A stretch of DNA of 64,000 nucleotides from Lepidurus packardi (lineage: Eukaryota > Arthropoda > Branchiopoda > Notostraca > Triopsidae), in the NCBI GenBank assembly GCA_023053545.1, contig JAKZAN010000004.1:11098001-11162000 (forward strand). Reading direction: 5' to 3'. The translations under genes and the position numbers were made by a program. The notes below the pieces were generated by a model that did not search any database, was not told the DNA's origin, and saw nothing but the letters and a program-made list of their open reading frames with translations. This document shows, piece by piece, positions 1 to 63,800 of the stretch (position 1 is its first letter; each line of letters starts with the position of its first letter).

Positions 1-1485
1 GCCTTTGCCCGGCTGCTGTTGGCCAAGGTTGTAAGTGAACTGGGCTGGGACGCCGCTGAGAATGAAGGTACACAAGACTGGGATCCTAATTCCTTTTTTT
101 TAAACATAATTTGGAACAATTTCAGGACATCTCACCACCATGCTGCGCAGTCTCACTGTGGGTCGAATGACGAGTTTGGATGATCCGGACATGGTGGCTG
201 AAGCTCAGCGACGTTTCCAAGCCCATATTTCGGGCGAACGGATCTTGGTGCCCGATATCCGTCCAACAGTCTATCGCGCAGTGCTGCGCCACGGTGACAA
301 AGCCACTTTGGAGCAGTTTTTGAAACTCTATCGCGACGCCAGCATGCACGAAGAGAAAGATCGAATTCTACGAGCCCTGGGAGCCATCCGCGATCCCGAA
401 GTCCTGAAAGAAGTCATTCAATTTGCAGCGACGGTAAGATTATTGGGGATTTCCCAACAGCTTTCATTAATTACCGTTACTTTATTGCTTTATTCTTTTC
501 AATTTTTTTTTAAATAAATAGGAAGCCCGGACCTCGGAAACCATCACCACGCTCCTGTCCGTCAGCTGCAGCCGATTAGGACGAGACATGGTCTGGGATT
601 ACCTCAAGGAAAACTGGGATATGATCGTTGAACGATACCAGGTCAGATTTTACCAACTGTCTTTTAATTTAGTGCCGTTTGTTTCGTTTGAATTGATGCT
701 AACTCGCCTGATTGCACGTTTCCCAACAAAAAGTTTCGTTTTCCACATCTATAGCATCCCATAACTCGTTCAATTCTGCCACGGGCCAAGTTTTGGTGTC
801 TGAAATCGCTTGATTATTTTGCCATTCTTCGTTTTTGGTACTCGGTTCACATATTCACTCGTATTAACAACAAGAATTTTGTGTGATGAACTTCGCGTGT
901 CGAGTCGTTCTTATGTCGAGTCGTCCTTGTGTCGACTCGTCCTTATATCGAGTCGTCCTTGTGTCGAGTCGCCCTTATGTTGAGTCGTCCTTATGTCGAG
1001 TCGCCCTTATGTCGAGTCGTCCTTATGTCGAGTCGTCCTTGTGTCGATTCGTCCTTGTGTCGATTCGTCCTTGTGTCGAGTCGTCCTTGTGTCGAGTCGC
1101 CCTTATGTCGAGTCGTCCTTGTGTTACGTCGTCCGCATTTGGTTTCCGTTGGTAAGACATTCACACAAGGTTTGTTGGTTGCTTGGTGTTCCCCTGTGTA
1201 TGTCAGTCTCTCACACTCGCATGTCCTCTTCTGGGAAAAGCTTTTTGTTACAAAGTCGAAACGTTTCTCCATCAGGGGATGTTCCTGTTGGCGCGTTTGC
1301 TGAAAAGCTTGATCGAGGAGTTTGCATCGGAGGAAAAAGCGCTGGAAGTGGAAGCCTTTTTCCGAGATCATCAGCATCCAGGCACGGAACGAGCCATTCA
1401 ACAAGGAGTAGAGTCCATTCGCCTGAATGCGGCGTGGTTGAAGCGCGATGCGGAGATCATTGGCCAATTCTTGAGCCAGAAATAA
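1..1485 (+). CDS. Puromycin-sensitive aminopeptidase (M1 family), C-terminal 234 residues, 5' partial
   Basis: Four coding exons, 1-67, 126-433, 522-641 and 1276-1485 (TAA stop), join in frame to 234 residues. All introns are GT-AG; the first interrupts a glycine codon and the other two are phase 0. The protein resembles the C-terminal helical (ERAP1-like) domain of puromycin-sensitive aminopeptidases. Visible hallmarks are a GHL start to the conserved block after intron 1, a YRAVLRHGD-like segment, EEKDRILRALGA, a WDYLKENWD segment before exon 3 ends, and LNAAWLKRDAE at fragment residues 215-225. In this family the zinc site (HEXXH with a distal E) and GAMEN motif lie in upstream exons, outside this window, so catalysis cannot be checked. 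The family removes N-terminal residues from peptides, mainly in the cytosol, and this domain shapes the peptide chamber. The protein ends soon after the conserved block, at SQK. No AATAAA is evident just after the stop. Confidence 0.93.
68..125 (+). other. Intron 1 of the aminopeptidase gene (58 nt)
   Basis: It starts GTACAC and ends TTTCAG after a pyrimidine-rich tract. It splits a glycine codon (G|GA), and this phase is required to keep the downstream frame. A stronger-looking donor GTAAGT lies inside the preceding exon at 31-36, but using it would shift the frame. Confidence 0.85.
434..521 (+). other. Intron 2 of the aminopeptidase gene (88 nt)
   Basis: Donor GTAAGA and acceptor AATAG, with a T-rich tract before the acceptor. 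It is phase 0, between the threonine codon ending exon 2 and the glutamate codon opening exon 3. Reading through it reaches a stop at 515-517. Confidence 0.88.
642..1275 (+). other. Intron 3 of the aminopeptidase gene (634 nt), holds a minisatellite
   Basis: Donor GTCAGA follows the RYQ codons, and the acceptor CATCAG precedes a GGG codon. It is phase 0. It is far longer than the two upstream introns, and about 235 nt of the excess is the 16-bp array at 900-1134. The rest is unremarkable AT-rich sequence. Confidence 0.82.
900..1134 (+). repeat. 16-bp minisatellite, about 14.7 units, intronic
   Basis: Unit TCGAGTCGTCCTTGTG with a few substitutions (TTATG, CGCCC and GATTC variants). Units start at 900, 916, 932 and so on to 1124 with no indel, so the register is exact throughout. 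16 is not a multiple of 3 and the unit lacks stops, so several frames on both strands stay open across the array; these are not genes. The unit is the same as the terminal motif of the hairpin elements at 43.7, 49.2, 54.2 and 60.8 kb, so this is probably an expanded end of that family. Confidence 0.95.
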
Positions 1486-2178: not shown

Positions 2179-2712
2179 TTAATGCTTCCGTATACCTTAG
2201 CTCGGCTTAGGTGGTTAGCATGGCGACTTTTGGAACAACTTGTGAGAAAACCAGTACATTTAATGAAAAATTCTTTGACAGTAATCTTGAGCTTACTAAC
2301 CAACTTACTTAACTAACAGGTAGTGCACAATTTTTCCAATGAGTAATAAATTGTCAATATGCAATTGAAGTTTGCAACGATGAGAAATACATTACTTAAA
2401 CAGTTGTCTTTTGGTCGTGCACTAGCGGCTAATAAAAAGAACTTTATTTATTTTGCTTTCAAGTCTGACAAGCCGTTTTCGAGAAATCTTGTTCCGAAAG
2501 TTTGACGACTTTGACGACATTGTGCTGCTACAGCAAACTGTGGTGACAAATTGCACTTTTCAGAAACAAGACAATCGTAGAAACAGACGGCAATTAGCTA
2601 TCTGCAGTATTTCTTTTACTTTCTTACGTAAGGCTGTCGCAAAAACAATAACATACAGCAGTGCCATCTGTGACTCGGTCCTGTCAATAAGCTAAGTTAT
2701 AGGGAGCCTTAA
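2179..2712 (-). mobile_element. TTAA-flanked MITE-like element, copy A1 (reverse orientation)
   Basis: It is flanked by TTAA on both sides (2179-2182 and 2709-2712). Inside these are imperfect inverted ends: TGCTTCCGTATACCTTAGC on the left, and on the right, read in reverse, GGCTCCCTATAACTTAGC. The whole interval matches, in reverse complement, the elements at 55956-56366 and 58680-58959. Shared blocks include the tract containing GCTGCTACAGCAAACTGTGG and the block containing CATCTGTGACT. At 534 bp it is the longest of the three copies. No transposase is encoded. The TTAA duplication is typical of piggyBac and Kolobok superfamily elements, and I cannot choose between them. Confidence 0.75.
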
Positions 2713-8517: not shown

Positions 8518-9623
8518 TTTAGTTTAAATGATTCATTTAGATTAATTGTACTAATTAATGAAGTGTACTGCGTTGATGTACAAATTCGACCGTTCACCGC
8601 AACAGGCGTCAGCCTACGCGGGTTAAATCAATAAAAAAAAAAAAAAAAATTCATGAAGTTCGGAACAAATTTCAGAGAAACTAATATTCGTTTCTTGGGA
8701 ATTTCTATACATAGTTCATGGATTCATAGTACCGGGAGCTTGAAAAGAGAAATTAATCCTTTCTAGTTTGGAAGGATTGAAAGAAAAAGTCTCACATGAA
8801 GGTAAGAAACGAAGCTCGTATATGTAGAACTAGTGTGGAAGCAAGTCGTTTTCCCCATTCTGACAAGCTGAAAAGCCAAGGCGAAATGCTCGCTCTCACC
8901 TTCTGATTGCCTATTCAGAAAACCTTCCTTTTCTTTCTGTCTTTTTTCTTCATTTTTTTAAACTCATTATCGAATGGAAACGTTTGGTGTGATATGGACT
9001 TGAAAAGCTTTTAAGCGGCTGCCAAGGTGGTCACTGGTCAATACTTTCTGCGGCCGCAGACTCTTGCTTCTTTTTGTTTCATTAGCAAAAGTTTACCAGA
9101 GGATGACGAGGCTAGAAAATCTCCTTCCTTCTTACCGCAACCTGATCACTTTTTTTTTTAGATTTTTTGACATAGGTGCTGTATATCCTTGTAACCCTGT
9201 AGGGGAAATATGGGGAATGAAACTTCCCTATTCTATTTAAAAGAGAAAAAAAAATTCTTCTTTTCGTGCAGTTTGCGGTGTCGCGCTAGAGAGATGCAAG
9301 TGTGTGTGAGCTATGACTGGGCTATATATCGGCGGCTATTGTGGTCCAAACTCTTTTGTCTGCCGATAGATTTGAGGTATTAGATGTCAAGAATGTGAGA
9401 TGCTCAAGCAAAAAAAGAAAAAAAAAAAGATGGTAATGGAATATACTCCGAAGCACAGCTCCGAAGTAACAGCAGCAAGAGAAGGAAAAAGAAAGAAGAG
9501 TCAGCATTGTTGTCTCAAGTCCAAAAATCTGAAATGTTTAGCGGCGGATCCTTCTTTGACTTCTCTCTTCGGTAGCGCTTTTCAGTACCGTTTGCACCTG
9601 AGCAAACACTTTGACTCTATAGT
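8518..9623. other. Intergenic, no gene seen
   Basis: No conserved exon or repeat recognised apart from homopolymer runs. A short open frame from 9400 runs into the satellite that follows and is not supported as a gene. Confidence 0.45.
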
Positions 9624-10348
9624 CAAGGCTTCCCCCCAAAACTGCGCTCTTCACTTTGAAAATATTTCTTTGATTTCATTATATTTTCGAACTCTTATTT
9701 GGTTTATTTTCTATAATTTATTTGATTCCTTTTCTAGACTTCATATAGTCTTGTAGAATTTTTATAATTTTCTAAATATTGATTTAGATTGTCTGAATTG
9801 GATTCAAGGCTTCCCCCCAAAACTGCGCTCTTCACTCTGAAAATATTTCTTTGATTTCATTATATTTTCGAACTCTTATTTGGTTTAATTTCTGTCATTT
9901 ATTTGATTCCTTTTCTAGACTTGATATAGTCTTGTAGAATTTTGATAATTTTCTAAAAATTGATTTAGATTCTCTGAATTGGATTCAAGGCTTCCCCCCC
10001 AAAACTGCGCTCTTCACTTTGAAAATATTTCTTTGATTTCATTCTATTTTCGAGCTCTTATTTGGTTTATTTTCTATAATTTATTTGATTCCTTTTCTAG
10101 ACTTGATATAGTCTTGTAGAATTTTGATAATTTTCTAAAAATTGATTTAGATTTTCTGAATTGGATTCAAGGCTTCCCCCCTAAAACTGCGCTCTTCAAT
10201 TTTAAAATATTTCTTTGATTTCATTCTATTTTCGAGCTCTTATTTGGTTTATTTTCTATAATTTATTTGATTCCTTTTCTAGACTTCATATAGTCTTGTA
10301 GAATTTTTATAATTTTCTAGAAATTGATTTAGATTTTCTGAATTGGAG
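9624..10348. repeat. 181-bp satellite, 4 tandem copies
   Basis: Copies begin CAAGGCTTCCCCCC at 9624, 9805, 9986 and 10168, giving periods of 181, 181 and 182. Each contains AACTGCGCTCTTCA, a TTATTTGGTTTA segment, TTCTAGACTT and TATAGTCTTGTAGAAT, and ends CTGAATTGGA. Divergence between copies is a few percent. The unit length is in the range of many centromeric or pericentromeric satellites, but only four copies are present. Confidence 0.95.
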
Positions 10349-11680: not shown

Positions 11681-12280
11681 TTATCGGTAATCTTTTCAAA
11701 GATTTTTTTTAATTTCTTCGGAATTTCTGGGACATTTTTGCACATTCTCTTGATAACTTTTGCGGGCAAATGGAAGTTTATGCAGGATTTCCTTGACCAT
11801 TTTTCTTGAAAAGAAAAACTTAACAAAGTTACGAATTTTAAAAAGTGTAACTGTTCCGGCGGACCAATCCTGTAATTTATCGGTAATTCTTTTCAAAGTT
11901 TTTTTTTTTTTAATTTCCTCGGAATTTCTGGGACATTCTTGCACATTCTCTTGATGACTTTTGCGGGCAAATGGAAGTTTATGCAGGATTTCCTTGACCA
12001 TTTTTCTTTAAAAGAAAAAATGAACAAAGTTACGGATTTTAAGAAGTGTAACTGTTCCGGCGGACCAATCTTGTAATTTATCGGTAATTCTTTTCAAAGT
12101 TTTTTTTTTTTTAATTTCCTCGGAATTTCTGGGACATTTTTGCACATTCTCTTGATGACTTTTGCGGGCAAATGGAAGTTTATGCAGGATTTCCTTGACC
12201 ATTTTTCTTGAAAAGAAAAAATGAACAAAGTTACGGATTTTAAGAAGTGTAACTGGTCCAGCGGACCAGTCCTGTAATTT
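11681..12280. repeat. 201-bp satellite, 3 tandem copies
   Basis: The anchor GGAATTTCTGGGACATT occurs at 11720, 11921 and 12122, so the period is exactly 201 bp. Copies share TTGCGGGCAAATGGAAGTTT and end GGACCA(A/G)TC(C/T)TGTAATTT. As 201 is 67 codons, the minus strand stays open in register with a repeated peptide MVKEILHKLPFARKS; I regard this as a by-product. A T run inside each unit varies in length. Confidence 0.94.
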
Positions 12281-18067: not shown

Positions 18068-19480
18068 AGAAAGTTTCAATTCAAATTCAATTCAGTTTCA
18101 ACTATTTATTCACTTCAGTTTCAAGAGGAACTATTTTCAGAAAGTTTCAGTTCAAATTCAGTTCAGTTTCAACTATTTATTCAGTTCAGTTTCAAGAGGA
18201 ACTATTTTCAGAAAGTTTCAATTCAAATTCGATTCAGTTTCAAGAGGAACTATTTTCAGAAAGTTTCAATTCAAATTCAATTCAGTTTCAAGAGGAACTA
18301 TTTTCAGAAAGTTTCAATTCAAATTCAATTCAGTTTCAACTACTTATTCAGTTCAGTTTCAAAACTCAGGAAGGATAAGAGGAATTATTTAGTCAAGTCA
18401 GTTTCAAGAGGAACTATTTACTCAATTCAATTTCAAAATTCAGGAAGAATAAGAGGAACTATTTATTCAATTCAGTTTCAAAATGCAGAAAGGAGAAGCG
18501 GAACTATTTATTCAATTCAGTTTCAAGAGGAACTAGTTTCAGAAAGTTTCAATTGAAATTCAATTCAGTTTCAACTATTTATTCAGTTCAGTTTCAAGAT
18601 TCAGGAAGGAGAAGAGGAACTATTTATTCAATTCAGTTTCAAGAGGAACTATTTTCCGAAAGTTTCAGTTGAAATTCAATTCAGTTTCAACTATTTATTC
18701 AGTTCAGTTTTAAAATCCAGGAAGGATAAGAAGAACTATTTATTCAATTCAGTTTCAAGAGGAACTATTTTCAGAAAGTTTCAGTTGAAATTCAATTCAG
18801 TTTCAACTATTTATTCAGTTCAGTTTCAAAATTCAGGTAGGAGAAGAGGAACTATTTACTCAATTCAGTTCCAAGAGGAACTATTTTCAGAAAGTTTCAG
18901 TTGAAATTCAATTCAGTTTCAACTACTTATTCAGTTCAGTTTCAAAATTCAGGAAGGAGAAGAGGAACTATTTATTCAATTCAGTTTCAAGAGGAACTAT
19001 TTTCAGAAAGTTTCAATTCAAGTTCAATTCAGTTTCAACTATTATTCAGTTCAGTTTCAAAATTCAGGAAGGAGAAGAGGAACTATTTACTCAATTCAGT
19101 TTCAAGAGGAACTATTTACTCAATTCAGTTTCAAAATTCAGGAAGGAGAAAAGGAACTATTTATTCAATTCAATTCAGTTTCAAAATTCGGTTTCAAAAT
19201 TCAGGAAGGAGAAGAGGAACTATTTATTCAATTCAGTTTCAAGAGGAACTATTTTCAGAAAGTTTCAATTCAAGTTCAATTCAGTTTCAACTATTATTCA
19301 GTTCAGTTTCAAAATTCAGGAAGGAGAAGAGGAACTATTTACTCAATTCAGTTTCAAGAGGAACTATTTACTCAATTCAGTTTCAAAATTCAGGAAGGAG
19401 AAAAGGAACTATTTATTCAATTCAATTCAGTTTCAAAATTCGGTTTCAAAATTCAGGAAGGAGAAGAGGAACTATTTAAG
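18068..19480. repeat. 1.4-kb minisatellite array with 252-bp higher-order duplication
   Basis: Built from roughly 23-25-bp pieces such as TTCAGTTTCAACTATTTATT, AGAGGAACTATTTTCAGAAA and TTCAGGAAGGAGAAG. Early units repeat at 71 bp, then at 48 bp when one piece is missing. At the end a 252-bp block is duplicated, with no difference that I could see, at 18951-19202 and 19203-19454. Because 252 is 84 codons, a 192-codon frame stays open across 18901-19479; it encodes only the repeat and is not called as a gene. Confidence 0.95.
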
Positions 19481-39883: not shown

Positions 39884-39943
39884 TAATTCTTAGGATTAAA
39901 TACTAATTCTTAGGATTAAATTCTAATTCTTAGGATTAAATAA
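39884..39943. repeat. 20-bp tandem repeat, 3 units
   Basis: TAATTCTTAGGATTAAAT(A/T)(C/A) starts at 39884, 39904 and 39924. Confidence 0.95.
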
Positions 39944-41390: not shown

Positions 41391-43738
41391 TAAGAACCCT
41401 TTGCGTTTAATCACGGTCACAGCGAGGTGCCTGTCTATCACTCACAACGATGATGATGAGAGGAAGCTGGACGTGTACATATACACTCATGGATGTAAGT
41501 GTGTGTGTAGTAAAAGTCGTCCTGGCGGTAGAAATCACGTTAATAACAACCTCTTACTCAACTTCAAAACCTTCCAATACAAATTTTTTGTCCTTTATTT
41601 TTTTTTTCTGCACACACGTGTGGATTAGAATATTATAAACTGTTGGCCTAGGCACATCAGGAAAACTTTCTCGTTTGATGCATACCTTTCCAGTCCCTTT
41701 CCTTTGCCCATTGGACCAGTCCCATCATAACTCACAACTCCGAAATTGTCCCTTCTTAACGAAATTTGAAGTCATTTATTAACAGCACGTTTACATGGAT
41801 TTTTCTTGCCAAAAAAAAGTGAGAAGTCGATATCACTTGCTTTATTTGGGTTGTTTTCTTTTTCATTTTATTCCCCCCCAAAGATTATTCCCAGGCCAAG
41901 GATATATAAGAGATCCGAGTCTTTCTCCAAGGGTCAGTCACGAATCCCCTGGCACATGCTAATTTCTCCCCATCTTTTTGATGGGGGATTTTGCTGGAAT
42001 CCTAATTTCAAATTATATTGGGACAGAGGATGAAAAACAAGAGTGGTTGGAAGCTATCTACATGGATAACAAGTGGTTTCCATTTTATTTGTATTTTATT
42101 TTAAAAAAAAACTTGGATGTTTTTTGGCTGTTGAGGGGGGCATGCGAGATGATTTCTTCTTGAAGACAGGATCACGGATGACATGCTCATGATCTCGTCT
42201 TTCGCCTTGGAATACTTTCCGGACTCTACGATCTATCTATTTGTCTATTCCTACCCACGTTACGCTCTCCGTGTCTTGCGTGACACGAGGTTATTATCCC
42301 GTCAGGTCGTAAGAGGGAAACAAATCTCATTGAAAAAAAAAAGTTAAAAAAAAAAAAAAGAGCAAAGGTTCGATGAATGCGTTAGCCCGAATGAAACTGA
42401 CTTTTCGAGCTGCGTTTAGACGGCTGATTCTTATCGGGGCTTAAGCATTCGACAGCTTGAATGGTCCCGAGCGAGACAAGATGAATTGGAGTAGAGTCAT
42501 TTGCATATCGGATTTTTTTCCCAATATTTCGCCCACAACTCCAAATTCTTTCCTACGCTTTGGTTTCTTAATTTCCATACGCATATTCATGCTCAAAGAG
42601 GTTTGATGATCTTTTTTTTAAGGAAATCTAAGTTTGTGATCTTTTTTTAAAGGAAATCTAAATTTGTTGGGTAAAGATTTTGAGAAGGGATCTCTCCTCT
42701 CCTCCGTTTGCATGCTGTATAAAATCCCTGTCAAAAGATTGAATCGAGAGAGAGAAAAGGAGGTTGGAGAGAGAGAGAAGGAAACGTTCTATATCAAAGA
42801 GGAACACCATGACGCGGAACCAATTGATTCCGGAGCAGGTAAAAGGTTGGCATTTGGCATTGGCAACAATCATTCAAAAGCACGCAGGGAAGGAACTTGA
42901 CGCCATATAGTCAGTCGCCCATCCTTTCTATTGCAAGGTAATCTGGGATCAAAAAGCGTTGGCGGCTACGCATTCCCGCCGATTGAAATCTTCTTACTTC
43001 TTCTTCTTCTCCTTCAGGAGAACTTGGAGGATGTAAATGGCCGTGTAACAAGGTGATGAACTGGGTTGGTATTCTGAGGAGGTTCATTTGCATAGGTTAT
43101 GGGTGATCCAGCTGGCAACGATTAGATACATTTCCTCCTCCCAATCCATTTTGTCTTTCCCTGAAAACCTGAAAACCTTCTTTTGTAATGAATTCGGAAT
43201 AATGCGCATATAATACAGTTAACGATAAGCAAATGAAGGTTCTAAGATGTCTGGGAGGATGAGTTCGGATGCATCAGTGCAAAATGATCAATGAGTCGCG
43301 AGATGAGATTATATCAAGGTAATTGACGATTTAAAACGGGAAAAGTGAAAGAAATAAGGAGAAGCAAGAAAGAACGAGAGAGAGACGTTTAATAGATTAT
43401 ATTTATATGTACTCTTGCTCACCCAAGATTGAAAACGATGAAATCTTTGAAGAGAATCAGATGAGCTCATACGACACTCGAGAATCTTGCTCAAGCTATC
43501 AATCAGGTGGCATCGATATCACGTGACCGTATAGTTTATTGTATCAGGCAAGCCAAGAGTATACGTATGTTTTGTCAAGGTGCGCAGGCGAGGACTATTA
43601 ATCTTTCTCTAGAGAGCTTTAAGGATCTTCATGCGTTAATATTGGACCACCTTATTTCTTTTTTACTTTCATTTCAACTCGATTTTCCTTTTTGCTCCAT
43701 TGCTCTTAAACATCTGGAAAAGACTAATCATGTTACAG
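41391..43738. other. Intergenic, no gene seen
   Basis: Contains a 30-bp duplication with TGATCTTTTTTTAA and AGGAAATCTAA at about 42607-42667, and A runs at about 42326-42359. No supported exon. Confidence 0.4.
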
Positions 43739-43970
43739 GCAACGCGACATAAGGACGACTCGACGGTGCACCCGACTCAAGGACTACAAACCCCGAATTA
43801 ATGACTAGGTTAGGTTAGGATTAGGTCCTGCTATGTTAGCACTAGGTTAGGCTGGGATTAAGTTAGGTTAGGTTAGGACTAGGTCACGTTAGGTTAGGTT
43901 AGTTATTTGTAATCCTTAAGTCGGGGTTCGCCGTCCTTAAGTTGGGTACACCGTAGTCCTTCGGTCGAGT
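43739..43970. mobile_element. TTAGG-core hairpin element, family D copy 1
   Basis: The left arm runs GGCAACGCGACATAAGGACG, then GTGCACCCGACTCAAGGACT, then ACAAACCCCG. The right arm is its inverse, with GTCCTTAAGTCGGGG, GTACACCGTAGTCCTT and CGGTCGAG. The core, 43803-43902, is TTAGG-rich, with runs such as GTTAGGTTAGGTTAGG and variants. The left arm lacks about 11 bp present in the right. Similar elements lie at 49200, 53640 and 60394. No protein is encoded. Confidence 0.75.
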
Positions 43971-46345
43971 TTTTCTTTTTAACCTTTTATGCGGAACTGA
44001 AATCGAAATTTAATACTACGATCCAATTTTAATGTTATAATCTAAGGACACACCTTTCAAGCATTCAAATACCCAAACTGCAGTTAAATGCACGGAAAGT
44101 TCAAGTAAAACGTAGTAAAATTTTTGCAATTACAAAAATTTGTAGCAAGAGTGTTGACGCCCATGTATGGTAAAATTACCACCAATTTGCTTACCCTGTA
44201 CCCTTTTTTGGATTGCGAAAGTCTGGAATTCTGAAAAATCTGGAAATCTGGGAATGGATTAAAGATTGGGAAGCTGACGAATTCCATTAGTGTGTTATAA
44301 ATGTTTTAGCCGCTTTTTGTGAGCCATGCTAGATAGATTTATAGTCCGTAACCGACCCCAACAGCGAGTGTTTTTGGTGTGTGTATGTGGGGGGGTGGTT
44401 GGGGGGAAAGATCTACATATTATCTCCCTCGCTTGTCTACAGCACTGGGACAATTTATTGTGACGTGTGCCCAGGTCTTGCTCTGGCTGATTAATTGCCT
44501 GGGAAAACTGAGTTACTCTTGAGAATTGCCTTAATGTTGGTCTCGACGTCTCGACGCTAAAAGATATAGTCTTACTTGTAATTCATTACAAAAAAAGTTC
44601 GGATAAATCTTTGACATGCCTCTTTTTTTTCCTAACCTACGTCTTATTTCTTTTTAACGAAAAGAAAAGTCTTACCTTCATGCTGGAACGAATCTTCCTC
44701 CCAAGTGTGAGGATGGAATGTTTAGCAAGTCGTAAAATTCGTAAGTTTCGTAAGTTTTATAAAAACGATTGCAGAATCACATTTTACCGATCCTTTCTAA
44801 AATCATTAGAAATAAACACAAGTTACGATGAATATCACCGTGTCAGATTCCATTCGCACGCAGCCAAAAAGCTCCGGTTTAATTGTTGGCGTTTATTGCG
44901 GCGATTTTTTATTTTTTATGCCGTCCCATTAAAAAAAAATAAGGCACAGATATTTGCTCATAAGGAGCTTTTTTATCGTTCCAGAGGGGAGTTGCAACCA
45001 AATTGGCGCTCGTAAAAAAAATGACGTTGGGATTTTTGACGATCTTCCGTGGAGCCAAAGCATCTTACCTTTCACCGTGCAAACTTTGACTAATTATACC
45101 TCTGCTCGAGCTGGCATTTATGATTTCTGCTTCTTACTTCTTTAAAAATTTTATTTCTATTTTTCTCACTACTTTATGTCGCTTCTTCCTATTCCAAAAT
45201 ATCAGTAATAAGCAAAACATCCTGGCGGGCACAGAAGAGGAGATTGGTAAGATTCCTCTCCTCTTCTCCGTCTCTGTAACCTGATTATAATAGTGCTATG
45301 ATATGTATATTTAAACGACTCAGCATCTTTTGGGCGATTCGCAGCGTCTGTTTAATTGCATACGTGATTTGATCTCATAAAGGGAGAGGAGCATAAAAGA
45401 AATCCATCCTTTTCCCAGAAAGTTGATTAAGCTCCCTGTGTTGATGGTTTCTGGGGCTTTGGGGAATTGCACACATTGAAAGGTTTACAAGCCAATGGAA
45501 ATAACTAGATAAATAATCCCCTGAGGCGTCTTTTGTTCAGGTGGTGCCTGTATATCTGTGCACGTTCTATGGATGTGAGAGAGAGATGCTCTTGTGATGC
45601 AACCAAGAGATTGCGTTTCGCCTAATTCGTTCGCGTGGAATTTCCGTTTCTTCGCCAGCGGATGATTTGAGGGATCATTGTTGTGCCAAAGCGACTGGTA
45701 ATGAATGGTCGCCCCCCTTCAACGCTTCTGCACCCTTTTTATTTTGCCTTCACAATCAAAAAATATCAAGAATGTTTTATTTTTATTTAAAAGGAAGATC
45801 TAATATGTATCGTATTAAAAAAGAAAAAGAGGAGGGGAAAAGCCGATCTTAACGATCCAACAGATCCTGTTCGACCCGACAGCTTATGGCGACTCTGATG
45901 TAGTTTTGGAGCAAGCCACAAGAGCCACAGATCCGACGTTTTCCAGCAATTTATGCTCAACCCCGTCAACAACCGAAGCCTCCATTGCCTTTTTCGCTCC
46001 ATTGTTTAATAACCAAGCGTGTTCTACCTTATAGTAATCTGGCCAAGTTCAAGCTACTGCCTTATAAATCTTGTTCCCCATATTTTTTGAGAAATGTTTT
46101 TAGTATTTTTTTCTTAAAAGAAATAGCGTTAGCTCAAGAAGTTTTATTCCGTTGGCATTTTACCTGTTATTTTGTAAATAGCCAGTACGTTATCAAGGCC
46201 AGATTCGATGATCTTTTTCTGAAAATATTTATACGAAACTCGCACTCATACTACAATTCAAGAACGTTACGATTGTTGTGTTTGACGTTTCATGGGTTCT
46301 AGAAAAGGATAGAATTCGAGGAGGATTTTGGTAACAACCATAAAG
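43971..46345. other. Intergenic, no supported gene
   Basis: Holds a G-rich tract (GGGGGGGTGGTTGGGGGG) at about 44389-44406. A 134-codon + strand frame at 44611-45015 is rich in F, R and K with no recognisable similarity, and is not called. Confidence 0.4.
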
Positions 46346-47112
46346 AAGTTCAGCCAAAAGAGCTCCATCAAAATAGTTCAGTCGTAAGAGTTGAATCGAA
46401 CGAGTTCAATCTAACGAATTCACTCGTAAGAGAGTTAAATTCGAACGAGTTAAGTCGAAAGAGCTTAGTCGAACGATTTCAGTCGAACGAGTTCAATCGA
46501 ACGAATTCAGTCGGAAGAGAGTTCAATTCGAAAGAGTTAAGTCGAACGAGTTGAATCGAACGAGTTCAGTCGTAAGAGTTGAATCGAACGAGTTCAATCT
46601 AACGAATTCAGTCGTAAGAGAGTTCAATTCGAACGAGTTCAGTCGAAAGAGCTTAGTCGAGCGAGTTCAATCGAACGAATTCAGTCGGAAGAGAGTTCAA
46701 TTCGAACGAGTTAAGTCGAACGAGTTCAATCGAACAAGTTCAGTCCTAGGAGTCGAACCAGTTGAACCAGTCGAACCAGTTTGAACTCAGTCGAACCAGT
46801 TCAATCGAACGAATTCAGTCGTAAGAGAGTTCAGTCGAAAGAGAGTTCATTCGAAAGAGTTCAATCGAACGAGTTCAATCTAACGAGTCGTAAGAGATTT
46901 CAATTTGAATGAGTTACATCGTGAGTTAAACGAGTTGAATCGAACAAGTTCAGTCGAACCAGTTCAATCGAACGAATTCAGTCGTAAGAGAGTTCAGTCG
47001 AAAGAGAGTTCATTCGAAAGAGTTCAATCGAACGTGTTCCATCGAACGAGTTCAGTCGTAAGAGTTCAGTCGTAAGAGTTTAGTCGTAAGAGTTCAGTCA
47101 GTCGTCAGTCGC
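46346..47112. repeat. 770-bp minisatellite array of 14/17-bp units with higher-order structure
   Basis: Units such as GAGTTCAATCGAAC, GAATTCAGTCGTAA and GAGTTAAGTCGAAA (14 bp) alternate with 17-bp GAGAGTTCAATTCGAAC variants. Larger blocks repeat too: the block starting GTCGTAAGAGTTGAATCG at 46381 recurs at 46569 (188 bp), and one starting ACCAGTTCAATCGAACG at about 46796 recurs at about 46959. The 3' end decays into GTCGTAAGAGTTCA units. Confidence 0.94.
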
Positions 47113-48829
47113 TAAATTCAGGTCTGGTAGCTCAAGTCTGGTACTAAATTGCTACGCGGAACATTCCAGAAATAGTAAACTGTATTGATGTCCGTCTTCT
47201 TTTCCTTTTGAGACTGTGAATATGAATATGAATATGAATCTAAAAAAATAATAAAAAATTTCGGACAACTTTTCCTGGGCGTCAATTTCAAACTTTGTTT
47301 TTAGGTACAGACTTAATATGCTTGGTTTGGACAAGTTGCTGAAGTGTTGGAACTAACCGAATTACGGTTCTCTGGCACGTTATGCAAAGTTGTATGTGCC
47401 AAAAGATATTTCGGCGGGGTAATGAAACAAAAAAGATGAGAGGGAAAAAGTATCAGCGCTTGACGGCTCCGGAGCACGTCAATTTACGAGGACCTTGCGC
47501 GCGGTAACAAGATAATCGATTGGACGCCTCGATAACAACATTCTTACTTTGACTCCCAAGCCCCACGATTTCCTCTGCGCGCTCCTTTATTTTTTTTTAT
47601 TTATTTTTTTACTCCCTTTGACCCAAAACAAGAGAGCCTCAGCGACAGTTTAAACTATGCGCGAAAAAATGAACCGTAAAGGTTTAAAGAAAAAAATAAA
47701 ATCGAGCTGTATTCCTTTTTATCTCCCGTGCGTCGAGGTTTTATAATAATGCATAGCATATTTTAACAGACTTTAAAAAAGAAAAAAAAATGACTCGGGT
47801 CCCCTTTTTTAGCTTTGAGCAGTCCATAAGCATGGATCACCACACACAGGTTTTTATGGTGATGGAAAGGGAACATAAAAGTAACACGCTTTAAGCTAAG
47901 CAGAGCTTCCCATGATAATGTGAATTTGTGGGTTTAAGGAAAAGGGGGGAACTAGCTAAACAAACACTCGATAAGACACGCTTTAAACTCATTTCATTTT
48001 CTTACGCTTACAGAAACACTAAACAAAAAAATAAACAGTAATTCTGAAAAACCGTATGGGGTTTTTTCGTCCACCATTTCACTGAAGAAATTACTTTGCG
48101 AAATGTTCGAAACGCCGGAATGTTTCGTTAGCCCGACTATGACACAACGAGCCAAACCCCGGAGAGGCGAATCGCTACAGGTCGTCCTAATAGAACAACA
48201 CAGAGATTAAGTTTGTGCTGGAAAAGCTTCAAATCAAGGCAGGTCACGACCTTAAGCTTGATGAACAGCTCCTCTCGTTGCCAGCTCCTGCCATAAATAC
48301 CAATACCTCTTTTTTTTTTCTTCCGTGAGCTGCGAACCCCCCTGATCCTCTCTGTTCGCTCTCTTACCCGTGGAACAAACGCCAAGTCCATTAATGGGCA
48401 ACAACAGCACTTTGATCCGCCATTTTGCGTGATTAACAGTCCACGGCTACTTAAATTGCCTCAGCATTTTGAGCAGCCCATATAAGCGATATACGCGTGC
48501 TTCGTGGGATAAAGGGAAACCTACTTGGAACTCTGAGGCTCTGATTGGATTTCCTTAAAGTTTATTTTCTTAAAAATCTTAGTCAAATTCGTGAGTCTTC
48601 CTCGTCTTGCGACTCCAGCAGAGATTGTTTTCCCATACTCGAAGCCAGATCGGATACGAATGATTGAAACGGAATTATGTAAGCCCGTTCTATTTAAGTG
48701 AATCTTGGAGTATTAATGTGTTAGACTATTAGTCTTGGAAGCGTTGTTATAGTATTCTATGCTGCCCAGATTTCAAGCTGGCGAGCTTTTTCAAGCTTTC
48801 AAGAGTTGCAGAGCATTCAAAGAGCCAAT
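47113..48829. other. Intergenic, no gene seen
   Basis: A GAATAT microsatellite at about 47217-47238 and T/A runs near 47590 and 47776. No exon recognised. Confidence 0.4.
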
Positions 48830-49000
48830 GCCATAAAAAACACATGTTGAGATTCTGATGGATTCGTGTAGGTTTCATTATGCTAAGAATGTTGAGTTTT
48901 GTTTCGTTTCTTTGGGAGCAGCCGTTCACGAGTTATGGCCACGCAAACTTGAGGTTTATGATGTCACGGACGTATCGTCGCGCGGCTTATGGGCGCTTTA
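48830..49000 (-). repeat. Dispersed repeat, family I copy 2 (reverse orientation)
   Basis: Reverse complement of the segment at 29041-29210. The 15-bp core AGCCGTTCACGAGTT at 48920-48934 is identical to the complement of 29107-29121, and the flanking blocks keep the same order for about 170 bp. The CRE-like site is degraded here to TGATGTCA on the + strand. Confidence 0.7.
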
Positions 49001-49199
49001 TAGCTTGTTTGCTGTTTGCTCCCATCACTAACACAGTAAAACAAGAAAAAAGATACGTCTATCACGCCATCAAGTCACGTAGACCAATTTTCTAAAATTC
49101 CTTTGGTTAATAGCTTACTCAATACTTTAAACATGATGGACAGGAATCATTCGAAATTTTTTTCTCGATTTTTAAATAAGCTTTTTTGGGGGGGACGTA

Positions 49200-49433
49200 G
49201 ACACAAGAACTACTCGACAAAAGAACTTCAGTGCACCCGACTTAAGGACTACGAATTTCGACTTAAGAACGCAAACCCTAACCTAACTTAACCTAGTCCT
49301 AATCTAATGTAAACCTAACCTAATCTAACCTAACATAGTCCTTAACCTAATCTAGACCTAATTTAACCTAATGTAACCTATCCTCGTCGGTGTTCGTCGT
49401 CCTTCTGTCGAGTCGTCCTTGTGTCGCGTTGCT
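49200..49433. mobile_element. TTAGG-core hairpin element, family D copy 2
   Basis: The left arm GACACAAG..CTACTCGAC, GTGCACCCGACTTAAGGACT and ACTTAAGAACGCAAACCC leads to a CCTAA-rich core (49274-49380, opposite strand sense to copy 1). The right end is GTCGAGTCGTCCTTGTGTCG followed by CGTTGC. Arms are diverged but inverted. The outer CGCGACACAAGG motif is shared with copies 1 and 3. Confidence 0.72.
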
Positions 49434-52400
49434 GTTTTTGTGTGGCTAATATGAACAGGCTATATAAACTGTGGCTGTTAATTCTTAGGCGAGGATTGGG
49501 GGTAAAAGTGAAATTCCAAAATGGTAGTAGTAGGATAAAGGGCGTTAGTTTTTGAGATTGAATGCGATTATAAAGCTTTTGAATTTAAAAACGCATTTGG
49601 CGCTCGGCATTCAGCAACTTTTGGGGTTCAGAAACAAGTTATGGTTCGCTGTTGCGAAGGCTTCGCACACTTTATAATTGCGGGTCTGATAGCTCATATG
49701 TTGGGAAGGCGTCAGAGCCTGACATTTGCACTTAAAAACACATATCCAAAGCGTTTAAGCTTCACAGCTACCAATTTACACCTGTCAAGGAGCCCCTTTT
49801 CATCATAATCTCCGAAAAGGGGAAATTTTCCTTATTTTTTCCTTATTATATTATGGCAGGTGACCTGTTATGAGTGAAGCTTCACTTCTTGTGTTTACAG
49901 AATTCCGAGAGGTCACTCTTTCCGGTTCGTTCTTATTTTCTCTCTTGATATTCTTTTCGTAGCAGAAACTTTGACCCTCCAAAGTCATTCAGAATCTTCA
50001 GGAGTCTTTAAAATGGACGATATGGTCCGTTTTATGGCGCCATCTGTCTTCATCATGTTATCAGCTTACGGGAAATATAGGTATGCTGTTCCACATGCAC
50101 GTCGTAAAGTCATTTTTTCGTTACGAAAGGCCAATTCTCCCAAAAGCATTATTGCTTCTAGCCCTCAAATAAAAACAAAAACGGTTTTGTTATTTCTAAT
50201 GAAAGGATGTGTTGGGATGCCCATATTGGCTTGAACTTTCTTACAAGAAAAATAAATCCTGAAGAAAAAAGAAAAAGAAGCATTCGAATGGGTCATGTTG
50301 CCAGCTGAGGCTGTTAAAACCAGTGTTTCTTACTTCCTTTTTTTCACGTTTTTTAGCACCCAACATCACGTTACCGTGTGCAACTCCGCTATAAACGGAT
50401 CGGGACAACCAAACTTGGACTTGGAAACCAAACTAAGCAGCTAAGCTGCTATTTACTTGATGTTGTTTTCTTACGTTCGTTTGGGGACGATTTGCGCTTA
50501 CTTGCGCTCCTGTGATGGTCAACCTTTTGCATACTTATTAGTAACCACAAACGCCGCCCCCCAAATTGGGGGCGCTCTTTCCCTTGGCGTTTCAAATTTC
50601 AGCGAATTGAAATTTTCAGCGCATTGAGTTTAGCAACGAGATCCAAGTCTCAAATCTGCGAATCTCCTTCAACAATTTTCACCTTTTAACTATAGCTTGC
50701 TGAAGACTCACAAACTTTCAAGACAAAGGGGGCGGGGCTTGTAGGAAAGCTTATTTGAGGAAATTGCGGTATCCTATTTAGATAATTATAGGGCACGGGG
50801 TTTTATCTTTTCGGTATATAGCTTTAAGGCTTTTTTTTACCTCTTTTTTATTGCTTTTCTTACATTGTTTTGTGGATTTTTGGCGTTTGAAAAAGCGACG
50901 TATGCCAGGAGGGAGAGAGAGGGAGTCCTATATACATAGGATTATGGTTAGGACTTTGGAGAGAAAAATGTGGGCAGGAATTCAATTTGACATTCTTCCC
51001 CAACGCGTGATTGAAAAGAGTCCCGGCATCTTTTTTTTTTTTTTTTCAAAAGTGCTGCGTTTTGGGGCGTGGTTAAGAAACTGGGGACTTTAGGGCACAG
51101 CAGGCGGAATATTAGTACAGTCTTTTTTGGTTTAAAAGACCAAGAACACAACCCCCGCCGATTCTTTGATTTGCTCTCGTTTGTTTCCATCCCAAGACAG
51201 TCCCATTACTCTTACCTTTTCCTCTGGCGTAAGAAACGAGACTTGTTGTTTCAAAAGAAGATTTTTTCTTTTCATCTTTAGGCACCTTGGAATGCTTGGA
51301 AGTGCCGTGTAATTCCCAAACATTGATAATCATAGTCTTATTTTTTTTAAAAAAATTTCCCCGTGAAAGGGCTTATGAATCTAAACAGCTTTTAATGCCA
51401 ATAGTTCTAATTTTATATAAATATCAGTTCTGTTTTATATAAATAGAGTTCTCTATATAGTTCTATTTAGTTCTATATATAGTTCTATTTTATATCAATA
51501 TATTCTAATTTTATATAAATACCAGTGTCTTTTTGGACAGTTTGGACAAACCTGGACTTTTTTATTTTTTTGTTTTCTTAATCTTTAATCACTTCAAATT
51601 TCCGGTGTTAAATAAATTTCAAGTTTTATTTAAGAAATGAGTACAATGAGTCGTGATGGAATCTGATTAATAATGATTAGCTTTGAGAAGCTGCCATTAG
51701 TAACTGACTAGTGTTGGGAATTATTACGTTAGTTGCGGTACAGAGAACTTGCAGTTTAGCTCCAAATCGAGCTCATCCTTTCTTCCTGACGAAAAAACAT
51801 AGTGGAAACTTTTGAAATATGAGCTCGCGTTGGTGTAATTTAGCTTCAATGGTCGTTGCGTTTTAATTCTATACCTTGTTTCTAATTTCTATTTTACCTT
51901 TCAGGGTTAGCATCGAAGCTCTCATTAATTAGAATGTTTGTGAACAGAAATGAGGCTTAATTCACAGCTTAGAGGAAATATCCAACCGTTTTGGAGCTCA
52001 AGGTTCAGGTTCAGGTGGGTTCATATGCAAAATTAACTCTGTGGAGTCGAGGTGCGAGCGAGAGGAGTGTAATGATAATAATATGTTTCCGACGTGAGAC
52101 AGATATGACCGTGTGGTTCTTTTATTTTTCTTCAATTTTTTCCTCTCCCTCCCCAAAAAGAAGCCGAAAAACTAAAACAAAAGCGTGTGTAGATGTTAGA
52201 AAATGTATGTGTATGTGTGTGGGGGGTGCAGGACACGCGACCTCTGCGTTCATAAATCGCTAAACTAGGAAGTGTCCTCCCCTTTTCCAAGCCCCAAGAT
52301 TTGCTTCTTTTCTCTTCTTCTTCTTCTTGAGCTTGTTTTTTTCTTCTCAACTCTCCCAGACGCAACGCATCGAACCTCTCCAATTATCCCCCTTAACTCA

Positions 52401-53639
52401 AAACGATATCTCCTAGCGTTTTCCTTGAGTTGTAATTTTCTCAGCTTTTCTCAAATCCGCTTCTTTTATTTTCTAATCTTCGCCCTGTTGAGAAACCACT
52501 TCTCCAAATGTAACCTGTTAGCAAATGTAACCCGTAATCTAGCAAAATCCGAAAATTTAAAAACCTCTTTGAAAATTCTCAATAATTTCAGAGCCCGAAC
52601 ACTTGTCGCCCTATGGGATTATTCGACAGTCACTCTCGGATGGCGTAGGAGTTTTTGATCTGAATGTGTAAACGATCAGTGCCTTTTAAAAAGCCGGAAA
52701 GGTTGTGTGACGGTGGGAGTTGGGACAGCCCCATGATGGATGATGGAGGACATCCCGTTGGGATTCGGGGCCCATCCTGTTAGGTCGACTAGGAAGGCAC
52801 AACATAAAACCTAACCTAACACCAGCCAAACGGAATTACACATACCCACACCACACACACACTCGGATTTTCCCACGCATGAGAGCGATTTTCCTTTAGC
52901 TTCAATTTATCAGACCACTATTAGCCAGAGGAACACAAGTTAGAGGTTAAACATTGGAATCATGCTGGGGGAGTGGTCCAATTATCCCGCCACGAAGATC
53001 CATAACAAGCAGGAAACACCGCACTTTTTCTTTTGCTCGCTTTTGGCCTAAATCAAGCGGCACCATGTGTGTGTTGCTTTGAAAGACTCACGGCTTTAAT
53101 GGACTGTATTTAAAAAAAAAAAGAAAAAATAGTTCTAAAAGGGTGGATTTGGTTTTACTCTTTTTTTGTCTTATTACTTTTAACATTATAACGCGTCAGA
53201 GTCAACCATAAAACTGCTTGGGAATAAAAACGAGCACAATTAAACACGTCTACTTTTTCCCAAGAATGGAAGAGAATCAGCATGAGGATATGAAAATAGC
53301 AAGACAAGGAGGCTGGGCTGCCTCCCCCAAAGTGATTCCCCGCGGAGCCAAATTGTTCCGTTTGGTGCAGTTTTCCATAACTACCGATATTCCAAGACAT
53401 GCGCGTTTGATGACATCACGATCCTATCAAGTCCCAAATCTTGCTCTTTCTTTTTGTTTCTCTTGAGCGGAAAAAAAGATAAAAGGCTTTTATTTTATTC
53501 ATTTTTTTTCTGTCTCCCTTTTGAGTTACAATATGATCAGGCTAGCCCGTGAGCACGACAATGCTACTTGGGGTGCAAAGTCGCTTCATTTTTCTCCTGG
53601 AATTTTGAATCAAAACAGTGACTCTCGCCTCCAATGGAA
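49434..53639. other. Intergenic, no gene seen
   Basis: Small items only: a hairpin CCCCTTTTC/GAAAAGGGG at 49793-49822, a GC hairpin CGCCCCC/GGGGGCG at 50555-50574, GTTCTATATA repeats at about 51427-51515, and a short AACCTAACCTAAC tract at 52809-52821. No supported exon. Confidence 0.4.
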
Positions 53640-54214
53640 TGCATTGAATGTTAATCGTATCACCTTCATTGGGACGCACTTGAATGGCAACGCGACACAA
53701 GGTCGACTCGACAAAAGGACTTCGGTAAACGACATAAGGACGAGGTTAGGCTAAGTTAGGTTAAGGTTAGGTCGAATGCAGTGAGTGATAACCGTATCGC
53801 ATTCATTGGAATTGAACCTAAAGAACGCACTTATGACAACGCGAAACAAGGTCGACTCGAGAAAAGGACTTCGGTAACCGACATAAGGACTAGGTTGGGC
53901 TAAGTTAGGTTAAGGTTAGGTCGAATGCAGTGAATGATAACCGTATCGCATTCATTGGAGTTGAACCTTAATTGAACAACTTGTGGCAACATGACACAAG
54001 GTCGACTCGACGGAAGGACAACGGTGCACCCGACTTATGGACGGCAAACTCCGACTCAAGGACTAGAAACCTCGACTTAAGGACTGCGAATTTGGACTTT
54101 AGGACTACAACCCCCGATGTAAGGACTAGCTTCGGTTAAGTTGAGTTAGGGGCTTGCAGTCCATAAGTCGGGTGCACCCAAGTCCTTTGGTCGAATCGTC
54201 CTTGTGTCGACCAA
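53640..54214. mobile_element. TTAGG-core hairpin element, family D copy 3, with tandem-duplicated left part
   Basis: The left-end motif with ACAAGGTCGACTCGA occurs at about 53697, 53846 and 53996, so a roughly 150-bp block (arm, TTAGG-like tract, then GATAACCGTATCGCATTCATT) is present about three times. The third is followed by 21-bp units (CCGACTCAAGGACTAGAAAC, TCGACTTAAGGACTGCGAAT) and the inverted right end with GTCGGGTGCACCCAAGTCCT and ATCGTCCTTGTGTCG at 54209. It shows how the module amplifies together with adjoining DNA. Confidence 0.72.
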
Positions 54215-60393: not shown

Positions 60394-60881
60394 GGAACTC
60401 CGACTTAAGGACTAGGTTAGGTTAGGGGTTTGTAGTCCTGAAGTCGGGGTTCCCAGTCCTTACATCGGGGTTTGTAGGGGTTGTGGTCTTTAAGTCAGGG
60501 TTTGTAGTCCCGAAGTCGGGGTTCCCAGTCCTTACATCGGGGGTTGTAGTCCTGAAGTCAGGGTTTGTAGTCCCGAATTCGGGGTTCTCAGTCCTTGCAT
60601 CTGGGTTCGCAGTCCTTACATCGGGGGTTGCAGTCCTGAAGTCAGGGGTTGTAGTCCTTACATCGGGGGTTGCAGTCCTGAAGTCAGGGGTTGTAGTACC
60701 GAAGCCGGGGTTCCCAGTCCTTACATCGGGGTTCACAGTCCTTACATCGGGGATTGTAGTCCTGAAGTCGGGGTTCCCAGTCCTTCTATCGGGGTTTGTA
60801 GGGGTTGCAGTCCTTGAGTCGGAGTTTGCAGTCCATAAGTCGTGTGCACCGTAGTCCTTCCGTCGTGTCGTCCTTGTGTCT
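60394..60881. mobile_element. Family D copy 4, expanded 21-bp unit array
   Basis: A short left part (CCGACTTAAGGACTAGGTTA and GGTTAGG) is followed by about 19 units of 21 bp at 60431-60840, typified by GTCCTTACATCGGGGTTCAC plus A. It then has the shared right end with GTGCACCGTAGTCCTTCCGTC and GTCGTCCTTGTGTC. The 21-bp period keeps both strands open (123 codons +, 167 codons -) with 7-residue peptide repeats such as VLTSGVA and RTTTPDF. These frames are by-products. Confidence 0.85.
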
Positions 60882-63800
60882 ACGACCCCACCACCCATAA
60901 TTTTCCTAGAGGAAAAGTTGAACATACGTCATGCATCATGCCGATGCGTTCATGGTGTACGAAGTTTCTGCAGTTACGATGGTCAGTTTATATAGTTATG
61001 CGTGAGGTTATAAGTATGAACATTTGAACCGACAGATCAGGGAGTACACGAAGCTACAAGCGAGTTGCGAATCGCTTGGAAATAAGTATAAGGAAAGCTT
61101 CGTATTAAACCCTCGTTTGCTGCTCACATTCTTATATTTTTTTCTTTTTCTTGATTTATATTTCTTTGCAGTGTTACCTGGCACATCAGCATGCTGTCTG
61201 TCCGAACGACAGATGGATTAGGCCTGGATGGTGTATAGGGGTTTGGTCGACCTGCCACTGCAAGCTTATATGCGTGCTACGTTGTCTTGGCATTTTTATT
61301 TCAGTCCAAGTCAGCCACAGAGAACGCGAGAGCTAAAGTCAAGACAAGGGAAGAGAAGAGGAGAGAGAGAGAGTTAGTTGTCGGATGTTTTGGACACAGA
61401 AACGAAAAAGGGTTCAGGTTTGGGGGGTTTAGGTCCGCAAGAGAGACCGTTTGCGTGACAAGACCTCGTAAATATCCATTGGTGTGCAAACCTCGTTGGC
61501 TTCATTTTTTGTTGTATTATTATTTTATTTTTTTTATTTTTTTCTGGGATGTTTTGTGTAGGTTCTGGAGGGGGGGAAGGAGACTGTTTTCTCTGGGAGT
61601 TTGGGATGCTGTATGCTGTGCATGGGGCCCAAAGAGTGCGCTATGGCGCTCTCCTCTCGTGTGTGCTGACATGAAACGTCATTTTCATGCCTGGAATTAG
61701 CATACTTTCCTGACGTTACTAGCGGCTTTTATGACCGACGAGCATGATCAGCCTTGCCGCCCCTTTCCGTGTAAACCTGGTGCAACATATCCTCGGATGG
61801 AAGTTTCTTTCCCTTTTTATGTCTGTTTATTTATTTATTTTTTTGTTTCTAGGGATACAACGGTATTACTATTGGAAAACTTGGGATTTTTTATATACGC
61901 ATCCAAAAAAAAAACTTTGGGCTGGAATTTCAGTTTCTCTCCTACTTCACAACCCGAGTTAGTTTCACTCTTCTCTATTATATGAATAATTTACCTAGTT
62001 CGGCCCATGTAGACAGTTTTTTGTTCTGTTTACTGGGGAGCTGCGCGGGAGTCCTGTAAAAAAAAAGGAAAAAATTATTAGGAAAAACGATCTCTACCAT
62101 CGGTGTTTTTATTATTATTTTTTTTTTGCGTGTTAGGCTGTGTGTGTTCCGTGCTCCGCCGCTTTTATCCTATTTATTACGCAATTTACATAGAGCAAGA
62201 CAGTAGTTTTCGTTGGTTCGGAGTTTGCGCGAATATTAGAATCTAAACGAGTTCCAACGTCAAACAAAATAGAATTTCCATATATTTCTCCGGAACGTAC
62301 GTAAATAAGTAGATAAGCAAATAAAAACTATTGGTGTTCTAAATGTTCTAAATTCTATATAAATCAATTAAAACTAAGTAAAGGAACATGTTATAAATTC
62401 TAAAAATAAATCAATAAAAATTGTTCGAAATTTCTCTAAATGCTATAGATAATAAACTATAAAGGCTCGGAAATCTTTCTTTGAATTTTTTGTAATTTTT
62501 TTTTTTACGCCCAAAGATTAAATTCCTAGTGAAAGGACTAGATAGGATCTAATCAGCTGACCCTGAGATGTATGATTAGAAAGTAGAGCGAGCCTTCTTA
62601 CTTACGTGTACTTTTACTCTTGTGTATAGTGTACCGTGTGAACGAGTTTTTATTTTTTATTTTATTAATTTGGTTTCATGGAATTTTCGCTTAAGCTCTT
62701 AACACACCCACTTAGCATGGATCTGGTGGTATGCTTATAAACAAGCTAACGCTCTATAAGGAAACATTATGATGGTTCAAACTGGCAACATGTGCAGCTG
62801 CGTGTTCTTTATTTATCTTCGTCGTCTTCTTTCGAAGACTTCGAAACTCAGCTCGCAGGGTCTTGCCAAAAAACAAATAAAATAATAAAAAGGACGTTGA
62901 TGGGATTTGCTCGCTTTGTGGCTGCACAATTTCACGGGTGATTTACCGGGCTTGGAGTAGTGAAGTGAGTCGGCTGAGCTCATCGAGTGCTTACATGCTT
63001 ACAATAACTTTGGGGCTTACGTATTGACTAGTATTGACTATTGATAATACATGTGTGTAGAATAAGTTCAGTCTTTATTTAACTGATTAGCTTAGTGAAC
63101 ACAAAGGAAAGAAAAACCTGTATTTCTTTTAGCTAGCAATGTACAGCAATCTGAAGCTTTCCCGTAAAGCGCTTAAGCCGGCTATTGCTCTTGATCACTT
63201 TTTTTTCTTAAAGGAGGGGGGTAGAGGAACCTTATGCTTTGTGGGGAGTTGTGAGAGTTGTTAGTAGCTTTGGTAAAGAATGGTTTTAAAAAGGCAAAGA
63301 AAAGGAGTTTGTTAAAGGGGAGAAGAAAAAAAGTTTCGATTCTTTTCAGTTTCAACGTTGAAAAAAGTTCTTCCAAGTCCCTTTTGGCGTAACGGGACTT
63401 TTCTCACTTGATTAGGTGCTCAAAACGTGGCGATCGTATTGCTGCGTATTCAGAAAGTATTGTGGGAGATGAGAGAAGCGGGACATGGGAGAAGCTTTCA
63501 TTTTTTTCTTACTCGTCTTTTTTTTAACCTCTAATTCCTCCACAGCCACAATAAAGGCGAGGTTTTTCCTCTTCACTTGGTCGTGGCTGTGTTCAATGGT
63601 CAGCACCGAGATTCTTCAATGCAGCATGACCCTAAAACCGTCCTATCCGATTAAAGTCAAAAGCTCTCCAGGAGTTCGCTTTCATTGAAGCGATACTTTT
63701 TTTGTGTTTAATAGTAAAAAGAAAATCTTGGTAGTTAATAGAAGAAAGCTGATGCTGATGGCAGATTTGCGGTCTACTTTACGGATTTCAGAGACTCTTT

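Follow-up and report, generated by a model that had tools for sequence, protein, structure and literature searches.

Family D, a repeat family present in a stretch of 64,000 nucleotides of the Lepidurus packardi genome (hereafter the window; C3:11098001-11162000), is very probably an old non-autonomous DNA transposon of the foldback kind, palindromic and resembling a miniature inverted-repeat transposable element (MITE), which moved by cut and paste and has several hundred copies. The initial annotation of the window had described repeat modules in an inverted plan around a TTAGG core, with a GTCCTT..GTCG motif common to the units; all of these are present, far beyond chance. Its proposal of a non-autonomous foldback is corroborated: the copies are dispersed, fold on themselves, have defined ends and are flanked by 8-bp target-site duplications, and one paralogous empty site is present.

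The ends of family D are fixed and unequal, with copies running from GGCAACGCGACACAAGG to CCTTGTGTCTAC[G/T]TCCC. The left terminus reads GGCAACGCGACAC and the right terminus, reversed, GGGA[C/A]GTAGACAC; they are not one sequence inverted, since only the inner part has ACACAAGG in common and the outer part differs. Because the two ends are unequal, every copy can be oriented despite its palindromic arms. Copies were counted in the assembly (108.56 Mb, 344 contigs, of which C1-C6 measure 10.7-14.0 Mb) as pattern matches with mismatches, and a profile built from 30 left ends was applied to the window only. The 16-mer TCGAGTCGTCCTTGTG matched at 430 sites with at most one mismatch, compared with two for its reversed control. 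For the left-end 17-mer GGCAACGCGACACAAGG the corresponding numbers were 253 and zero at up to one mismatch and 413 and seven at up to two, so that the further copies sought genome-wide were found in abundance. The right-end 17-mer CCTTGTGTCTACKTCCC had 61 exact sites and none in the control. The 92 exact left ends are scattered in chromosome interiors.

Two-ended elements were defined as left-right pairs lying 40-1200 bp apart, with at most four mismatches per end and five in total. Applied to the window and to loci retrieved from the assembly (L numbers), leaving out the overlapping L006-L008, this rule yielded 30 end-to-end elements of 62-645 bp, which are too short for a transposase; their translated frames received no family search. 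A right end was present by the same rule in 22 of the 30 loci retrieved for an exact left end (L039-L068). The widest eight pairwise matches among the 30 elements, covering 78-98% of the longer member, were 65.5-76.9% identical; family D is therefore old and probably inactive.

Evidence for transposition comes from the flanks of these 30 elements. Flanking octamers agreed at a mean of 5.13 of 8 positions, compared with 2.28 after re-pairing the flanks, and in 5,000 flank shuffles the highest mean was 3.13, so that the observed value was never reached. Agreement was complete in five copies, 7/8 in four and 6/8 in six. Flank identity reached 64% at a length of eight but stayed at 26-40% for lengths of 4-7 and 9-12. 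The target-site duplication of family D is therefore 8 bp. The initial annotation had also recommended looking for empty sites, and one diverged, paralogous example was found: the joined flanks of the copy at L045 match the forward strand of the window at 2342..2445 without interruption (82/105 identities, 4 gaps). Joined-flank matches of four other copies were rejected as empty sites, those of L051 and L067 because the left flank was little covered and those of L066 and L082 because they fall within the locus of the element concerned.

The arms of family D are inverted arrays of a single unit, GTCCTTNNGTCG. With up to two mismatches, this unit occurs 86 times in the right halves of the 30 elements and 16 times in the left halves, and its reverse complement 82 times in left halves and 12 times in right halves; shuffled elements gave nine unit matches in all. 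Its commonest spacings are 16 bp (33 cases), 21 bp (33) and 22-23 bp (29). Since GTCCTTNNGTCG recurs at all of these spacings, the 16- and 21-bp modules, for which a shared origin had been suspected, are one and the same unit. When folded as single-stranded DNA, the 30 elements had z values between -1.7 and -22.7, with a median of about -8. The centre of long-range pairing lay at 0.39-0.59 of the element length in 28 of them.

The core is distinguished by TTAGG on one strand. Over the 9,127 bases of the 30 copies, the element strand holds 78 TTAGG and two CCTAA, with 16.4 TTAGG expected from dinucleotide shuffles; the flanks (3,600 bases) hold two TTAGG and five CCTAA. At least one TTAGG is present in 25 elements and at least two in 19, and in many copies the tract directly follows an AGG of the arm. 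Among the 25 TTAGG-bearing copies, 23 hold one to five TTAGG, in tracts that are mostly short and degenerate, and for 15 of the 25 the TTAGG positions average between 0.4 and 0.6 of the element length. All clusters of at least three TTAGG in the window belong to family D, except one at 39889-39934 in a 20-bp tandem repeat. At other loci, such clusters occur in family D copies, at L022 and L025 (chosen for their match to Mutator-like elements, MULEs), at L083-L086, L088 and L089 (chosen for TTAGG or Merlin) and at the end of C3 (L087). The last base of contig C3 closes a perfect TTAGG run, and TTAGG is therefore probably the telomere repeat of this genome, in line with the earlier description of the core as an arthropod telomere-type motif. 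Contig C86 contains a further long TTAGG run.

Several observations weigh against the transposon reading or against the generality of its TTAGG core. Flanking octamers agreed at fewer than six of eight positions in half of the copies (15/30), the empty site at 2342-2445 has diverged to 78% likeness, with its poorest match at the junction itself, and a right end within 1.2 kb was missing at 8 of the 30 loci retrieved for an exact left end. Folding was weak in two copies (z of -1.7 and -2.5). Two copies, with 16 and 9 TTAGG, supply 25 of the 78; TTAGG is absent from 5 of the 30 copies, single in 6, and off centre in 10 of the 25 that bear it. No listed family D end falls on a perfect (TTAGG)5 place, as judged from the 100 of 104 matches that were listed, and no autonomous partner or transposase with family D ends was found when transposase matches were compared with 248 listed end positions. 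Local tandem duplication alone, without any transposition, would account for the 149-bp units at 53674-54019, the array at 897-1124 and the expanded arm at 60420-60830, but the dispersal of hundreds of copies, their fixed ends and their 8-bp duplications refute it as a general account, and we give it hardly any credence.

With transposition as the favoured explanation, the origin of the core has to be considered separately. The core may descend from a telomere repeat captured once in the ancestor of the family, perhaps as filler at an internal break, and then copied and eroded; we consider the arguments for and against this evenly balanced. None of the copies examined has a long clean telomere array as its core, and the short, worn tracts of family D fit its age and speak against a recent telomeric origin. 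A serious but somewhat less probable alternative is that the core is a minisatellite that slipped from the arm unit (TTAAGG minus one A), its likeness to the telomere being accidental; the initial annotation had likewise considered a simple minisatellite resembling TTAGG. TTAAGG does occur in many arms, on the same strand as the TTAGG of the core, and the tracts, short and degenerate, include variants such as CTAGG and TTAAG. However, arms that end in ACGTCACAAGG and have no TTAAGG next to the tract run directly into TTAGG as well (for example at L041, L065 and L068), and the same 5-bp tract is found in a Merlin element, beside MULE-matching sequence and capping C3. The initial annotation had offered a derivation from subtelomeric DNA; on this view TTAGG would have been kept from there. 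The telomere motif carried by family D speaks for it, but eight chromosome-end stretches (L069-L075 and L087, with L074 consisting mostly of N) contain none of four family motifs at up to three mismatches, the subtelomere of C3 consists of a different repeat, and the exact left ends are interstitial; we therefore regard a subtelomeric origin as very improbable. The contig ends L070, L071, L072, L073 and L075 are satellite rather than TTAGG, of type CCGTAAGGAATTAATTCAGT on C1, C2 and C4 and of type TTTCAGGTAAAATTACAAGC on C3 and C6.

Three transposon lineages with TTAGG tracts are present in this genome, of which family D is the largest. In the second, the Merlin/IS1595-type transposase frame at L089 (C1:10685900-10688600) is broken by an intron-like stretch filled with TTAGG and bounded, as read by eye, by GTATGTGATTAGG and TTTCAG; the locus C1:4552931-4553304 was noted together with it as Merlin/IS1595-type and TTAGG-associated. 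The genome has three PF12762 (Merlin) matches, two of them beside (TTAGG)5 sites. A query with the Merlin inverted end gave 45 genome matches, including 15 places with two inverted ends (L083-L085 and 12 more), about 606 bp apart, with one at 617, and a (TTAGG)5 site is enclosed in 14 of the 15. At L083 the TTAGG tract passes directly into TGATGTCGATTTGGAATAAA, which resembles the last transposase codons. These paired-end elements look like a Merlin derivative that is non-autonomous and has TTAGG as its core, and perhaps this core came from the transposase intron. Because three copies of the type found at L083-L085 are identical at 498 of 498 bases, the Merlin derivative is much younger than family D. 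The third lineage is represented by related TTAGG-bearing sequence at L022 (944-990), L025 (871-957) and L088 (171-373), in the first two cases beside a MULE match. The 100 listed (TTAGG)5 matches fall into 23 places, namely 14 between paired Merlin-type ends, two at Merlin transposase loci, L088, the end of C3, C86 and four unassigned places.

We infer that the three lineages represent independent captures of the telomere repeat, and such capture by transposons may be recurrent here. A tentative and rather unlikely explanation is that unrelated lineages each gained TTAGG when the abortive repair of an excision gap was filled or healed with telomerase product. One study (PMC7215372) documents, for primates and rodents, telomere repeats inserted where breaks had been repaired; extending this to transposon gap repair in this genome would be an analogy, to which we assign the same low likelihood. 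If true, non-autonomous elements would be born with a TTAGG scar, which would then disperse telomere sequence across chromosome arms. With tracts of TTAGG also found in the Merlin lineage and beside MULE-matching sequence, this genome is suited to testing whether telomere repeats fill transposon repair gaps.

A transposase supplied in trans would have recognised the ends of family D. As background, MULEs make target-site duplications of 8-11 bp, commonly 9, and many Mutator elements have GG-type ends; Merlin (IS1595-like) elements make duplications of 8-9 bp and have GG ends; hAT and P-type transposases both make 8-bp duplications. The 8-bp duplication of family D is inside the MULE range but is not its usual length, and its agreement with Merlin in duplication length and GG ends is a weak test, being shared with MULEs. 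By these general rules, a Mutator-like or Merlin-type source would fit the GG ends and the 8-bp duplication best. The partner check set 63 MULE (PF10551), 25 P (PF21788) and most of 150 scored hAT positions, out of 306 hAT candidates in the genome, against the 248 listed family D ends. It found five transposase matches within 12 kb (one MULE and four hAT), and the nearest MULE was at 9.5 kb. The Merlin at L089 was rejected as a partner because its ends are different (best, six mismatches of 17), and the other two Merlin copies have the same end sequence as L089. A left-right pair of 9,191 bp on C2 was likewise rejected as a full element, since its flanks, GGGATAAT and AGAGGGAG, disagree; a retrotransposon-like frame, judged by eye, starts 77 bp inside its left end. 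Many MULE copies at L015-L028 share 97-99% identity and have frames as long as 1356 aa; they represent a recently active MULE lineage.

We think it improbable that a hAT or P-type transposase moved family D. Matches to both exist, and the two hAT read as candidate partners, at L081 and L082, are the nearest of the matches compared, at 1.7 and 2.6 kb from family D ends; in addition, the foldback-like Galileo is assigned to the P superfamily in the accessible part of its description (PMC3573991). However, the L081 hAT is a separate element bounded by inverted ends of its own (776-796 and 3197-3217), the family D neighbour of the hAT near L082 is a separate element of 62 bp, and the listed ends have no P match within 12 kb. 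The GG with which family D ends begin is also unlike the terminal bases generally given for hAT or P. The element at L081 (776-3217) is hAT-like, with 21-bp inverted ends and interrupted frames.

Foldbacks as such are a known kind of transposon, and elements of comparable plan are known from Drosophila. In Drosophila FB, short tandem units that vary in length make up the arms, which are inverted on either side of a core, and FB makes 9-bp duplications. The arm plan of FB and Mutator-type foldbacks is thus like that of family D; the duplication of FB is 9 bp and that of family D 8, and no Mutator transposase is tied to family D ends. As far as the accessible text of the Tetris description (Drosophila virilis; PMC4079207) goes, Tetris is likewise a foldback with repetitive arms, no coding capacity and no known autonomous copy, makes duplications of 8-10 bp and has arm repeats that seed satellite arrays. 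It differs in its 220-bp repeats and much longer arms, and that text mentions no telomere-repeat core; the comparison is by description. The same text indicates that most foldbacks seem to be Mutator. Galileo resembles family D in its long, internally repetitive inverted ends, but has a 7-bp duplication, a P-type transposase and arms of up to about 1.2 kb, and a TTAGG core is not mentioned in the part of that paper available to us (PMC3573991). Its repeats have been proposed, in the same part, as secondary transposase-binding sites (PMC3573991), and the repeated arm units of family D may have acted in this way. The core recalls the interstitial telomeric sequences (PMC7215372, PMC6410037), which are also short telomere-repeat tracts inside chromosomes; in the portions of these papers that were available, they are insertions at genomic sites in mammals (primates, rodents and others), whereas the tract of family D sits in mobile elements and is multiplied by them.

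The suggestion that the family may be undescribed holds in part. Foldbacks with repetitive arms are known (Tetris, Galileo and FB), but a literature search that covered few subscription journals, and not Repbase, found no publication describing a TTAGG core in a foldback or MITE. What is new is the telomere-motif core, which lies on a fixed strand and is multiplied with the element. Family D thus joins foldback transposons with interstitial telomere repeats, and suggests how telomere sequence can be distributed along chromosome arms by transposons.

In the window, the modules of family D are present at all four loci to which one plan had been attributed together with an intron array, but only one copy has both ends and the other three are truncated or rearranged. 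The two-ended copy lies on the reverse strand at 49192..49433, with the reversed right terminus GGGACGTAGACAC at 49192, the left terminus ending at 49433, arms, and nine TTAGG in the core on the element strand; its flanking octamers agree at 4/8, or at 7/8 if both edges are shifted by one base. The remaining copies are on the forward strand. The copy at 43738..43970 has a left end, arms and a TTAGG core (about 43807-43902), and no recognisable right terminus. At 53686..54209, two tandem partial units, each consisting of left arm and TTAGG, are followed by a fuller copy; tandem-repeat finding gave a period of 149 bp and 2.3 copies at 53674-54019, and in the fuller copy (53986-54209) the terminus is diverged and the arms are 83% complementary. 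The remnant at 60398..60888 has a right end, a right arm amplified to about 14 units of 21 bp, almost no left arm and two adjacent TTAGG. The array at 897..1124, on the forward strand, is a minisatellite of the 16-bp terminal unit alone (14.2 copies), without termini or TTAGG.

Family D thereby shows arm units turning into minisatellites. Its arms would lengthen and shorten by slippage, which at times may convert them into such arrays (897-1124; 60420-60830). One-orientation clusters of the 16-mer at C2:12831524-12832634 and C3:10339418-10339673 resemble the window array at 897-1124, as terminal units that have become minisatellites. At C3:680424-680842, three exact family D left ends are spaced by exactly 201 bp in a tandem array made from the element, and at C3:5544557-5544589 a right end meets an oppositely oriented left end with a one-base overlap. 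Other long tandem arrays of the window do not belong to family D; they lie at 46342-47099, 18068-19478, 9623-10347 and 11681-12280, and their units are of a 14-bp AAAGAGTTCAGTCG type and of 116, 182 and 201 bp.

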